From Halorussus amylolyticus (lineage in GTDB: Archaea > Halobacteriota > Halobacteria > Halobacteriales > Haladaptataceae), in contig NZ_ML974131.1 in the NCBI RefSeq assembly GCF_004143485.2, forward strand, positions 179,867 to 243,866: a DNA stretch of 64,000 nucleotides, in the 5' to 3' direction. The notes beneath the pieces are model-generated. The model was not told the origin of the DNA, made no database searches, and worked only from the letters and a program-made list of their open reading frames with translations. Positions 4,714 through 48,395 of the stretch are shown here, piece after piece (position 1 is the first letter of the stretch; every line of letters begins with the position of its first letter). Position numbers and translations under genes: made by a program.

Positions 4714-5117
4714 AATCGGGTGTTGGGAGTTGATGGTCGTGTTTCGTGAATCGTCGCGGTGGTGTCGAACGGAGGAGTGAGTCGGTGGGGTGTGGAGAGT
4801 TGGAGTGAGTCGGTGGAGTCGCGGCAAAGCTAGCTACTTCCGGCACCTATGAGGACCGCACAGCACCGCGACCGCGGGCCACACCCTCCCCAACCGACTC
4901 CCTCACTCGCGCCTTCGGCGCTCGCTCGGTCGTCCCTCGCACGCATGGGCGCACCCACGAGGGGTGCGCCAGCGCGCGCCGTCTGCTAAATTCCTTTGTT
5001 TTGTGCCCATTTGAAATACAGATTACAGAAATCGAGTCCGGTAACGCCGACTACAAAAATGTATTCCAGATTATACTTTTGGTTGTGGCGGCCCTCCACC
5101 TAGATGAGGAGAGACCG
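4714..5117. other. 404-base intergenic region containing structured repeat copy A
   Basis: No credible gene is seen. The region holds GT-rich sequence (4720-4820), then repeat copy A (4830-4980), then an AT-richer stretch (4985-5075) that probably contains the promoter of the membrane protein gene at 5118. Confidence 0.7.
4830..4980 (+). repeat. GCTAGCTA structured repeat, copy A (short form)
   Basis: It begins GCTAGCTAC, continues through a CTATGAGGACCGCAC segment and a CCACACCCTCCCCAACCGA block, and ends with a hairpin GGCGCACCC-acgag-GGGTGCGCC (4948-4970) followed by AGCGCGCGCC. The same block order occurs at 12681 and 48208. It lacks the first hairpin module present in the other two copies. 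Not protein coding. Confidence 0.85.
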
Positions 5118-12680: not shown

Positions 12681-12925
12681 GCTAGCTACCGCCGATACCT
12701 AGAAGACCGCCCCGCACCGGCCACACCCTCCCCAACCGATTCGCTCCACTCCCTCCGGTCGTTCCGCTCATCCACCGGAAGACAAACCGCGTCTTCCGAG
12801 CCATCGGTCGCACCGTCGGACCACGGTCCGACGAGCCTGCACTCGCTTCGCTCGCGCAGACTCCGCTCCCGATGACCTCGCGCGACTTGGCGCAGGCCAA
12901 ACAGCGGCCTGCGCCAGCGCGCGCC
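12681..12925 (+). repeat. GCTAGCTA structured repeat, copy B (long form, three hairpins)
   Basis: It shares with copies A and C the GCTAGCTA start, a CCTA-GA--ACCGC segment and the CCACACCCTCCCCAACCGA block. Three perfect hairpins follow: CGGAAGAC-aaaccgc-GTCTTCCG (12776-12798), CGTCGGACC-ac-GGTCCGACG (12814-12833) and GGCGCAGGCC-aaacagc-GGCCTGCGCC (12889-12915), then AGCGCGCGCC. Copy C has the first hairpin with a different but compensated stem, and copy A has the last one with a different compensated stem. Confidence 0.9.
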
Positions 12926-13058
12926 GGGTTCCAAAGTCCGCCTCGAACGGAATTCGCAACGAAAAGTACCTCCTTCAGTGGTCGTGGCTGTGCCCGCCAG
13001 TACCCCGGATTCATGACTGGCCACTTCTGTGTCGGCCACGCGCGGAGAGTCCCACAGT

Positions 13059-13066
13059 TTTATATC
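13059..13066 (+). promoter_or_regulatory. TATA box candidate for antitoxin-like gene
   Basis: TTTATATC is centred about 27 bases before the ATG at 13089, the spacing of a leaderless archaeal transcript. Confidence 0.6.
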
Positions 13067-13088
13067 TACAAGTATCGTACGATTCTAC

Positions 13089-13238
13089 ATGTCTGCGGAT
13101 AAGGAAGCTACAGCAGACTCCGCTTCCGACGACGATGAGATCTCCCGCCGAGACGAACTCTACGAGGCAGTCGTAGAGTTCGAAGAGGGAGATACACCAA
13201 CTGAGGATGACGTTCGTTCGGCGTTCCTTTCGCAGTAA
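13089..13238 (+). CDS. small antitoxin-like protein, 49 aa
   Basis: An acidic protein (MSADKEATADSASDDDEISRRDELYEAVVEFEEGD) preceding a toxin-like frame by 59 bases. Size, charge and position suggest an antitoxin that neutralises the downstream product; no DNA-binding motif is obvious. ATG chosen from the TATA spacing. The toxin reading frame also has its own TTTAA box (13265-13269), so the two may be separately transcribed. Confidence 0.6.
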   Translation: MSADKEATADSASDDDEISRRDELYEAVVEFEEGDTPTEDDVRSAFLSQ

Positions 13239-13297
13239 TTTCTCGGTCAGGCTGTAGGGACATCTTTAAGCACACAATCTGACAGTTTCTAACTACT

Positions 13298-13743
13298 GTG
13301 CGCGAGTTTCCGTTGGACGGCGATACTGTCGTTGTCGAGTTCACCAGCAATGCGCTCGAAGATGTTTCGTCCGACATTCCGCGCGAAAAACGAGAGAAGA
13401 TTCTCGACAAACTCGTCGAGGTCGCAAAAAGTCCGAAGCCTGAACGGTATCTCGACTACTTCGATGGGTGTCGGAAGCTCGGAAAATATACATTGACGGT
13501 GAAATACGCACTATCTGTTGTATCGTGACTCGTCTGCCCGGTTACAACGTTCTACCGGTGTTCGCAATCACTGAACACGATTATCGGCAGTTAGGGAAAC
13601 ACGACCGGCGAGCAGTCGAGGCGGTCGAGCGGCTATCTGACCTTCAAACAAAAGCCGAAGTAGAACAGTATCTCGAAAACCGACCAAACACCTTCGATGT
13701 TACCGACCTACAACATCTCCGTGACGACCTACTCGAAAAGTGA
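13298..13743 (+). pseudogene. toxin-like gene split by a -1 frameshift at an A-run
   Basis: Frame 1 (GTG 13298) reads REFPLDGDTVVVEFT, then PREKREKILDKLVEVA and YLDYFDGCRKLGK, and soon stops at 13528. The -1 frame continues from the four adenines at 13483-13486 as IYIDGEIRTICCIVTRLPGYN, then VFAITEHDYRQLGKHDRRAVE, to 13743. Joined after GGA-AAA, the product is about 148 residues with continuous RelE-like alternation of helix and strands. One extra A in the run restores the frame. It is either a decayed toxin, a sequencing or assembly error, or a frameshift-expressed gene; the family assignment is uncertain. Confidence 0.65.
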
Positions 13744-13755
13744 CCGACGACAAAC

Positions 13756-15138
13756 TCAGTGGTCGTGAGAGTGCCCGCCGTCCGCACTCGCATCCCCACT
13801 GCCAGAGATGTCGCCGCCCGCGACGAGCGCGTCGTGGTCGCCCTCTATCATGTCCATGTCCTTCAGGTGGTCGCGCTCCTCGAAGTCCTTGATGGCGTCC
13901 ACGAAGTCCTCCTGAGTAAGTTCGGTTCGCTCCTCGGTCAACGCGTCGAGGACCGCCTCCCGGAGGACCATCCGGAGGTCGCTCCCGGTCAGGCCTTCCG
14001 TCTCCTTGGCGAGCGCCATCGGGTCGAACTCCGAAATCTTCATCGGACGGGTGATGAGTTTGAGGATGTCAGAGCGCATCCCCTCGTCGGGCTTCGGGAA
14101 GTTGACGATTTCGTCGAAGCGCCGCCACGCCGCGGCGTCGAGTTGGTCGGGGTGGTTCGTAGCACCGATGAGGAGCACGTCGTCCTGAATCAGGCTGATG
14201 TTGTCGATGGACTTGAGCAGGGTGTTGACCGCGCGCTTGATGGCGGCGTGTTCGTCGCTCGCGCGGGTCTTGGCCACGAAGTCGAACTCGTCCATGAACA
14301 GGATGCAGGGCGAGAGTCGCTTCGCCACCTCGAACACCTTCTCGACGTTCTTCGCGGTCTCGCCGAGATACTGGCTCGTAATCATCGAGAGCTTGACCTC
14401 CACGAACGGGAGGTCGAGGTCGTACGCGAGCGCCCGCGCGGTCGAGGTCTTCCCGGTCCCCGGCGGCCCGACGAACAGGAGCTTCCCGATTTCCCGGAGA
14501 CCGATGTGCGCGAGGTACTCGCGGTGCTCGATGGCCTTCACGATTTTCTGAATCTCGGCCTCCTGGTCGGCGGTCAGCACGAGGTCGTCGAGGGTAGTCT
14601 CTATCTCCTCGGGTGCGCGGATGTCCACGAGGTCGAGCATCTCCTCTTCTTCCTCGTCGGCGAAGTACTCCGAGAGGAGTCCGTCTATCCACGCCCGGTC
14701 GGCCTGGACCGGACGGTTGGCGTCGCGGGCCGCCTCGTGGTCCGCGCCGTCCACCTCGCCCTCGAAGGCGTAGGCCAGCACGGGGTTGTGAAGCACGCGT
14801 TCCTCGGCCCGGCCGAGGAACCACTCCTCGGCCATGTCGGGCTGGGTCAGTTCGAGCGACCCCGAGAACTCGTCGCGGTCGGTGAACATCAACTCCGAGA
14901 TGGCGCTCCACGGATTCTCGACGCCGGTCGCTCGGCGGGTCGTTTCGATGGTCGGTCGAATCGGGCGCTCGATGCCGACCGGCGAGTCGTCGCCGGGTCG
15001 GTCGCCGTCGGTCGAACCATCGGGCCAGAACACCTGTCTGTAGCGTGGGGGAAGGTCGTTTTCGTCCAACGCTCGGTTGTCGTTGTACAGTCTCGCGGTG
15101 AGCAGGAACTCGACGACTTCCAGAGCCGCATCGCTCAT
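13756..15138 (-). CDS. AAA+ ATPase, haloarchaeal CDC48-like single-domain protein
   Basis: A 460-residue protein. The N-terminal 190 residues are unique to the group and include an acidic run (FADEEEEEMLDLVDI). The AAA module follows: Walker A GPPGTGKTS, pore-region KLSMITSQYLGETAKN, Walker B CILFMDEFDFVA, sensor-1 LLIGATNHPDQLD, arginine finger in AAWRRFDE, and a sensor-2 region LTGSDLRMVLRE. The C-terminus is Gly/Asp/His-rich and ends GGHSHDH, possibly metal-binding. Start taken at MSDAALEVVEF. Substrate or partner unknown. Confidence 0.9.
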   Translation of the reverse strand: MSDAALEVVEFLLTARLYNDNRALDENDLPPRYRQVFWPDGSTDGDRPGDDSPVGIERPIRPTIETTRRATGVENPWSAISELMFTDRDEFSGSLELTQPDMAEEWFLGRAEERVLHNPVLAYAFEGEVDGADHEAARDANRPVQADRAWIDGLLSEYFADEEEEEMLDLVDIRAPEEIETTLDDLVLTADQEAEIQKIVKAIEHREYLAHIGLREIGKLLFVGPPGTGKTSTARALAYDLDLPFVEVKLSMITSQYLGETAKNVEKVFEVAKRLSPCILFMDEFDFVAKTRASDEHAAIKRAVNTLLKSIDNISLIQDDVLLIGATNHPDQLDAAAWRRFDEIVNFPKPDEGMRSDILKLITRPMKISEFDPMALAKETEGLTGSDLRMVLREAVLDALTEERTELTQEDFVDAIKDFEERDHLKDMDMIEGDHDALVAGGDISGSGDASADGGHSHDH

Positions 15139-40444: not shown

Positions 40445-41176
40445 ATGACACACACAGCACGACGAACGCTACTCAAATTGGCCGGGGGCATTGCCGCGCT
40501 CGGCAGTACAGGACTTGCAAGTACCGACCAAGCAACGCAAGAGCTAGCTATCAACGCGCCGTCTGACCAGCAATATCAATACCAGTTCGCAGTTACAGGC
40601 CAGCTTGAACAGACTGACCATGCCACACAGGCACCCATCAATAACGCTCACGTCACTGCCGACGCCGAAGACGACATTGACCAATGCCGTGTTCACGGCG
40701 TAACCCGTGGGGGATACGACTGTTATCAGTATACCGGAGATCTCGTGGCGTTCGTCGTCCCCGAGCGTCACATCTCGAAGTACACCATCTATCACAACGG
40801 AGCGGAAACTCACGCGCGTGACCTCTTGACCGAAAGACATCCGAGCGACGTGGCGTGCGGTCCCACGGATATGAATACGACAACCGGTGGAGACCAAGAT
40901 GGGGGTGAAAGCAGAAACGAGGACTTCTGTCCTCTCGATAATCGTGTCGCGATTATTCGAAACGGACCTCAAAGTGTAGGTCCTGTTCAGTATACGATTG
41001 GGGTCTCTGGTGAACTGGAACTCCCATCCGGACGGCGAGTTCGTCAGACCGAGGGTACTATTCGCTTTTCTGGTGGGACGGAAAAACGTGAGTTTGTGTA
41101 CTCAGGTGAACTCGTGCAGCTCTCCGTGAGCAACCATGCGAGTGTGCGGGTAACACAGGAGTCGAGCTGTGAGTGA
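40445..41176 (+). CDS. Tat-exported hypothetical protein, 243 aa
   Basis: Starts MTHTARRTLLKLAGGIAALG, a twin-arginine signal with hydrophobic core; no lipobox cysteine follows. The mature part is beta-rich with paired cysteines (CRVHG, DCYQY, ACGPT, FCPLD, SSCE at the end). Repeated strands QYQYQFAVTGQLEQ and VQYTIGVSGELELPSG suggest two similar beta domains. Codon use is less biased than chromosomal genes. No family recognised. Confidence 0.8.
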   Translation: MTHTARRTLLKLAGGIAALGSTGLASTDQATQELAINAPSDQQYQYQFAVTGQLEQTDHATQAPINNAHVTADAEDDIDQCRVHGVTRGGYDCYQYTGDLVAFVVPERHISKYTIYHNGAETHARDLLTERHPSDVACGPTDMNTTTGGDQDGGESRNEDFCPLDNRVAIIRNGPQSVGPVQYTIGVSGELELPSGRRVRQTEGTIRFSGGTEKREFVYSGELVQLSVSNHASVRVTQESSCE

Positions 41177-48207: not shown

Positions 48208-48395
48208 GCTAGCTAACACTTGAGCCTATGAGAAACCGCACCGCCACCGCACCGGCCTCGAACCTCCCCAGCCTCCTGCGCTTCTCGGCCTCCGCTTCGC
48301 TTCGGCCTCCGATGCTCGTCCACCGGCGGACAAATCGCGTCCGCCGAGCATTCGGTCGCTCCGTCGTCGCTCCCGAAGACCTCGCGCGCGCCGAG
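48208..48395 (+). repeat. GCTAGCTA structured repeat, copy C (medium form)
   Basis: GCTAGCTAA start, then the CCTATGAGAAACCGC segment, the CCTCCCCAGCC block and one hairpin CGGCGGAC-aaatcgc-GTCCGCCG (48324-48346), followed by GCATTCGGTCGCTCC and a GAAGACCTCGCGCGCGCC end. Compared with copy B it lacks the second and third hairpins: its end joins the element directly to the terminal GCGCGCGCC. Confidence 0.88.

Follow-up and report, generated by a model that had tools for sequence, protein, structure and literature searches.

The small mobile repeats (SMRs) of Haloquadratum represent the nearest described kind of element that the repeats considered here appear to resemble. SMR-A and SMR-B of Haloquadratum walsbyi measure 80-110 bp, have prominent terminal inverted repeats and are highly identical in sequence; they encode no protein, cause no target duplication and insert in the palindromes of other mobile elements, and their mobilisation has been called enigmatic (PMC3119063). 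The 'SwitchRepeats' of Haloquadratum are a case in which one place carries the repeat in the opposite orientation (PMC3119063). The PATEs and IS605-type elements of haloarchaea show near-terminal palindromes, lack target duplication, are heterogeneous in their copies and are attacked by smaller repeats (PMC3119063). From bacterial phyla, CGTC- and GTAG-tagged REP sequences, including the Rickettsia RPE, have been reported as lone stem-loops, 20-40 bp in size, that carry an invariant unpaired tag, and the CGTC repeats form inverted dimers, vary in their stems, have intragenic copies and are not associated with a transposase (PMC3733652).

In Halorussus amylolyticus we identify a non-coding repeat, the arm, and, nested within this arm, another element: the double hairpin that we term module X. 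By description, X is like the SMRs in being tiny and present in many copies, in the lack of a transposase and of target duplication, and in its insertion in the palindromes of mobile elements; the opposite repeat orientation at one place that typifies the SwitchRepeats is a further likeness. X is unlike them in its length of 48-59 nt, two internal hairpins, variable stems and lack of terminal inverted repeats, and it is because these terminal repeats are missing that we do not file it as an SMR. Near-terminal palindromes, no recognised target duplication, heterogeneous copies and attack by smaller repeats are also reminiscent of the PATE and IS605-type elements, but this genome has no Y1 transposase (PF01797) and the arms combine a fixed head with an inverted-pair arrangement. 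The dispersed palindromes, variable stems, inverted dimers and in-frame gene copies recall REP and RPE and, as in the CGTC type, there is no transposase; however, X comprises two stem-loops with no fixed GTAG or CGTC tetranucleotide tag, and the RAYT (Y1) transposase of the GTAG type is missing here. Fungal and algal mitochondria contain double-hairpin elements with two adjacent hairpins that are both dispersed and nested. Their two adjacent hairpins, dispersal and nesting make them like X by description, a lead offered across unrelated genomes.

The window, i.e. the whole analysed stretch of 64,000 nucleotides, contains three copies of the arm (A, B and C; Table 1). A sequence-only reading had proposed a non-coding element of which three sites share the same blocks in a fixed order together with covarying hairpins. 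Inspection of the sequence bore out the shared order at all three sites: GCTAGCTA occurs at 4829, 12681 and 48208, the CCTCCCCA(A/G)CC block at 4885, 12727 and 48263, and the GCGCGCGCC end at 4972, 12917 and 48384. A fourth GCTAGCTA in the window, at 40543, was found without the other blocks; taken singly, GCGCGCGCC is at the level of chance (7 observed vs 5.8 expected) and CCTCCCCARCC at one mismatch gives a weak signal. Each copy is a non-coding arm of ~150-250 bp; no protein is encoded, as had been stated. The stems and 7-nt loops that had been quoted are exact in copies B (CGGAAGAC-AAACCGC-GTCTTCCG at 12776-12798) and C (CGGCGGAC-AAATCGC-GTCCGCCG at 48324-48346). They are not common to the three sites, for copy A is devoid of them, and copy C in turn lacks the last hairpin of the arm. 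Copy A lacks the quoted hairpins because they constitute a separate inserted element, module X; the covarying hairpins are thus not part of the GCTAGCTA element, as had been supposed, and belong instead to a second, class-wide element inserted into the arm. The stretch adjoining copy B (window 12926-13760) contains small genes here and is absent in two other genomes (G018 and G022); it is flanked on either side by CAGTGGTCGTG..GTGCCCGCC, as if a gene end had been duplicated where something inserted.

Table 1. Arms, modules X and F hairpins in the 64,000-nucleotide window
Feature	Window position	Strand	Details
Copy A, solo arm, no module X	4829..4980	+	head 4829-4859, CCTCCCCAACC 4885-4895, F hairpin, GCGCGCGCC end
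F hairpin of copy A, GGCGCACCC-ACGAG-GGGTGCGCC	4948..4970	+	type matches the 69 F hairpins
Copy B, solo arm, two nested modules X	12681..12925	+	head 12681-12710, CCTCCCCAACC 12727-12737, end 12916-12925
Module X1 of copy B, 53 nt	12774..12876	+	split by X2 into 12774-12811 and 12862-12876
Module X2 of copy B, 50 nt	12812..12861	+	in the second-hairpin loop of X1; 68.1 bits, E 6.8e-14
F hairpin of copy B, GGCGCAGGCC-AAACAGC-GGCCTGCGCC	12889..12915	+	
Copy C, solo arm, one module X, no F hairpin	48208..48392	+	head 48208-48239, CCTCCCCAGCC 48263-48273, end CTCGCGCGCGCC 48381-48392
Module X of copy C, 59 nt, enlarged second loop	48322..48380	+	56.9 bits, E 2.6e-11

Examination of further copies revealed that the arm consists, in order, of a GAAGCTAGCTACTCCCGG-type head, a run of ACCGC-like pentamers (which in some copies forms a perfect hairpin of its own), CCTCCCCA(A/G)CC, a TCGCTC-rich stretch, CATCCCTCGCGCG, a terminal hairpin (the F hairpin) with a short loop such as ACGAG or AAACCGC, and the GCGCGCGCC end. 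A second type of arm (type II) has CCTCCCCGCG followed by a single long hairpin. Using the strict head pattern GCTAGCTA-N4..30-CCTA-N2..6-ACCGC we recovered 34 matches in the 3.78-Mb genome and, with the reversed pattern as a control, 0, and the further genome-wide copies that the sequence-only reading had called for are therefore many. A DNA similarity search with copy B recovered 87 matching pieces of the genome, which together with the pattern matches make up ~60 clusters, some of them matching copy B through module X only; E-values between copies reach 1e-32. The catalogue was built from these searches and from retrieved stretches, with only part of the first-look candidates scored, so that its counts are lower bounds. 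Of the 28 family genomes 19 have the head, almost all being Halorussus, and in a class-wide sample of 391 genomes matches came from family members only. Pieces matching the arm are present on five Halorussus plasmid records, and none were found in phages.

Paired arms form 14 clusters in this genome, always inverted (10 tail to tail, 4 head to head and 0 direct; p about 1e-4), and all other arms are solo. A comparison of orthologous sites in two species (L065 and L070) shows that a partial arm can arise through deletion. The arm of site A is absent at the orthologous place in G022, and among ten relatives retrieved for site C an arm is seen in the same intergenic region of G022 alone, with a different head; in neither case are the exact ends fixed. 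Owing to divergence of the intergenic DNA in the relatives, base-precise empty sites for copies A and B could not be placed. We also considered a single conserved 'master' copy, given that several genomes have one copy with CTGCCGACTCCTATCATACCGC, and rejected it since these copies, each an ordinary arm or pair, lie at different sites. Immediately left of one convergent arm pair (L132; G000:C2:601025-601475) there is a short tandem array of GTGACGGTACGAG-like units.

Module X is too short for a transposase and has the layout (A/G)CCG-stem1-loop-stem1'-GAGCC-stem2-TCGCTTCGCTC-stem2'-GAC, in which the inner loop of the second hairpin is 11 nt long. Its ends, RCCG...GAC, are not inverted repeats, both hairpins being internal, and the base after GAC varies, leaving no fixed tetranucleotide. 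In copy B, X1 is inserted between CATCC and CTCGCGCG; arms without X read CATCC|CTCGCGCG uninterrupted, such that X is present or absent at one and the same site of the arm. It additionally occupies further positions in arms, type II arms carrying it in reverse, and other copies lie within the F-hairpin loop or in coding DNA. A covariance model built from nearly perfect copies (R1) recovered 70 copies in this genome at E<=1e-5, and extending the search to other haloarchaea, as had been suggested from the sequence alone, recovered many more across the class: X occurs in 28/28 genomes of the family, ranging from 14 to 146 copies inside one genus, and in 125/145 haloarchaeal genomes representing 52/58 genera. 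In a sample of 120 genomes from the phylum it was present in 17/19 haloarchaea and in 0/101 genomes outside them. In several genera X is preceded by the same upstream words (L173, L150, L175 and L203, near 1480-1500), namely CTCGACCAAAAGC or, in others, CCCTTTCAGTCC; these may represent further haloarchaeal repeat families hosting X.

Two insertions reveal that X is mobile. First, the gene of this genome for the DNA helicase Hel308 (G000:C1:24568-24615; L158 1501-1548) contains a 48-nt X inserted in frame, and the gene is uninterrupted in 16 other Halorussus species; at most 3 bp of the target may have been duplicated at this insertion. It amounts to 16 codons (the GVSASEASGGSSDLSDG stretch) that are seen in this genome only. 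Second, once X2 is deleted from copy B, X1 is again a perfect double hairpin of 53 nt whose loop is the canonical TCGCTCCGCTC, and the junction shows no target duplication. X thus moves without evident target duplication and nests in itself, supporting the mobile repeat that had been envisaged as one outcome. Of 67 classified X copies in the genome, five lie in frame in coding-like sequence with lengths all divisible by three, a property partly imposed by the in-frame test, and the copies in coding genes occur on either strand.

The stems of these elements vary strikingly and nearly always on both sides. The seed alignment of X (21 copies) contains 78 cells with two-sided changes and 1 with a one-sided change. 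A set of 66 copies, most of them taken from Halorussus and its family and others from elsewhere in the class, has 235 two-sided and 2 one-sided changes; shifting the partner by 1-3 columns abolishes the signal. The claim that stem changes are compensatory therefore holds in both sets. The 69 F hairpins likewise display 45 distinct stems; of their 632 pairs, 621 are Watson-Crick, 2 are G-U and 9 are of other kinds. In both X and F the loops are conserved in sequence and the stems are free to vary, which suggests that the loops are recognised by something. G-U pairs are scarce, with 5 among the roughly 1008 paired cells of X. As a control we took 15 tRNAs from the same DNA, with pairs as drawn by ARAGORN, and counted 307 Watson-Crick, 19 G-U and 0 other pairs (19/326 G-U). 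Given that the F-hairpin finder penalises G-U equally with any mismatch, and that R1 was built from near-perfect copies, the absolute rates are lower bounds and it is the share among mismatches that carries the argument: G-U accounts for 7/38 of the non-Watson-Crick pairs in the repeats, which is the share due to chance, vs 19/19 in the tRNAs (Fisher p = 1e-9). A selected folded RNA should tolerate G-U and the repeats do not, which argues against selection on RNA.

Polymerase template switching between inverted repeats has been described as leaving two footprints, namely homogenised arms and inverted spacers (PMC8604942), and compensatory changes in RNA stems have been proposed to arise from it (PMC8794818). 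Perfect arms are seen throughout the repeats, and a clear spacer inversion at one site only: at an orthologous site in two species (G011/G026; L063 1478-1500 vs L077 1478-1500) the 23-bp spacer between head-to-head arms is in opposite orientation, with 22/23 positions agreeing once it is inverted and both arms staying in place. GCTAGCTA at this locus is a possible flip site. The inversion could also stem from recombination between the inverted heads; there was no inverted loop in X among 47 copies, nor did close relatives reveal any individual event of arm copying, and the conserved loops of X and F weigh on the same side. The chance-level share of G-U among the mismatches together with the orthologous spacer inversion favours DNA-level arm copying or DNA-hairpin selection over selection on RNA. 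Our preferred reading, to which we would give about two chances in three, is that the sites are transposase-less, non-coding mobile repeats of Halorussus hosting the class-wide X, with stems kept perfect by DNA-level arm copying. One arm would be copied onto the opposite arm through replication template switching between inverted repeats, a process that would keep the stems perfect by homogenising the arms and could flip the spacer. Selection for the perfect single-strand DNA hairpin required for mobilisation may contribute, the likeliest route for both X and arms being an enzyme that would act in trans on single-stranded DNA hairpins. Neither the arm nor X is, on this reading, a conserved functional RNA.

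The main rival assigns the perfection of the stems to selection by a mobilising enzyme alone: a hairpin-recognising transposase supplied in trans, of the HUH/Y1 type or another, would propagate only perfectly paired copies, and a variant would survive only where its two arms match. Such selection may act together with arm copying; as the sole cause we consider it possible, though doubtful. The conserved loops with freely varying stems, the insertions into hairpin loops, inverted pairs as in REP dimers and the near-terminal palindromes of haloarchaeal PATE and IS605 elements (PMC3119063) all speak for it. However, it accounts for the perfection and not for the spacer inversion, and X copies in coding genes are equally perfect. 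Moreover, the Y1 family PF01797 is without a match in this genome with its 70 X, for which reason we rejected RAYT/Y1 as the mobiliser here, and is likewise absent in G014, G017 and G020 (64, 113 and 58 X respectively); in other species no X lies near the Y1 genes. Head-like repeats beside one Y1 gene (G019; L284) were considered as a CRISPR array and rejected, being a 64-bp tandem repeat (2250-2680) that contains TAGCTAGC and adjoins the transposase gene.

It is rather unlikely that the arms represent a classical MITE, of which the pair would be the entire element, its terminal inverted repeats beginning with GAAGCTAGCTAC, moved by the transposase of a same-ended insertion sequence, and the solo copies deletion remnants. 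Convergent pairs, and these only, do have long terminal inverted repeats, and an arm that is whole in L065 is deleted in L070. Nevertheless, solo copies are the majority, head-to-head pairs also exist, a pattern search recovered no transposase-bearing relative with these ends at the spacing of an insertion sequence, and no target duplication was recognised at arm ends, for which there is no base-precise empty site. A more far-reaching version of the preferred reading, which we regard as a long shot, would make X a selfish, haloarchaea-wide double hairpin of ancient origin, able to spread and nest without a dedicated transposase because template switching during the cell's own replication would both copy it and keep its stems perfect, with the GCTAGCTA heads as places where DNA flips.

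Strong covariation, two helices and conserved loops are what a structured RNA family, be it a small RNA or a cis-regulatory element, would present were its hairpins kept through selection on the transcript. Yet G-U is nearly absent and not favoured over other mismatches, Rfam returned no match, and the neighbouring genes (14 convergent, 10 divergent and 24 tandem) show no bias to gene starts or ends, on which ground a terminator or promoter role was also rejected. Copies of X furthermore lie within coding genes on either strand, are nested in one another and vary from 14 to 146 in a single genus, making this explanation very improbable. Of the selection on folded RNA or DNA that had been read from the compensation, the RNA half is thus unsupported by G-U share, Rfam and gene position, and the DNA half may hold. 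Finally, chance resemblance of G+C-rich, low-complexity DNA, to which the ordinary frequency of GCGCGCGCC taken singly might point, is refuted by the 34 ordered heads vs 0 in the control, the E-values between copies and the exact insertions in Hel308 and of X2 in X1.

The three sites belong to a real, repeated and mobile family of non-coding DNA with a second mobile element nested inside it. The literature searched, with most subscription journals outside it, yielded no published description of X or of the GCTAGCTA arm, and this supports their novelty weakly. Changes on both sides of a base pair are commonly taken to prove that an RNA is functional. In the present case the covariation is very strong, with hardly any G-U, in a DNA repeat found in intergenic DNA, in coding genes and in itself; it is genuine yet no demonstration of a functional RNA. 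The repeats offer a natural test case both for RNAs called falsely and for template switching at the origin of compensatory change. Undescribed in the literature searched, X would, by its presence in most haloarchaeal genera, be a widespread source of small in-frame protein insertions in archaea.
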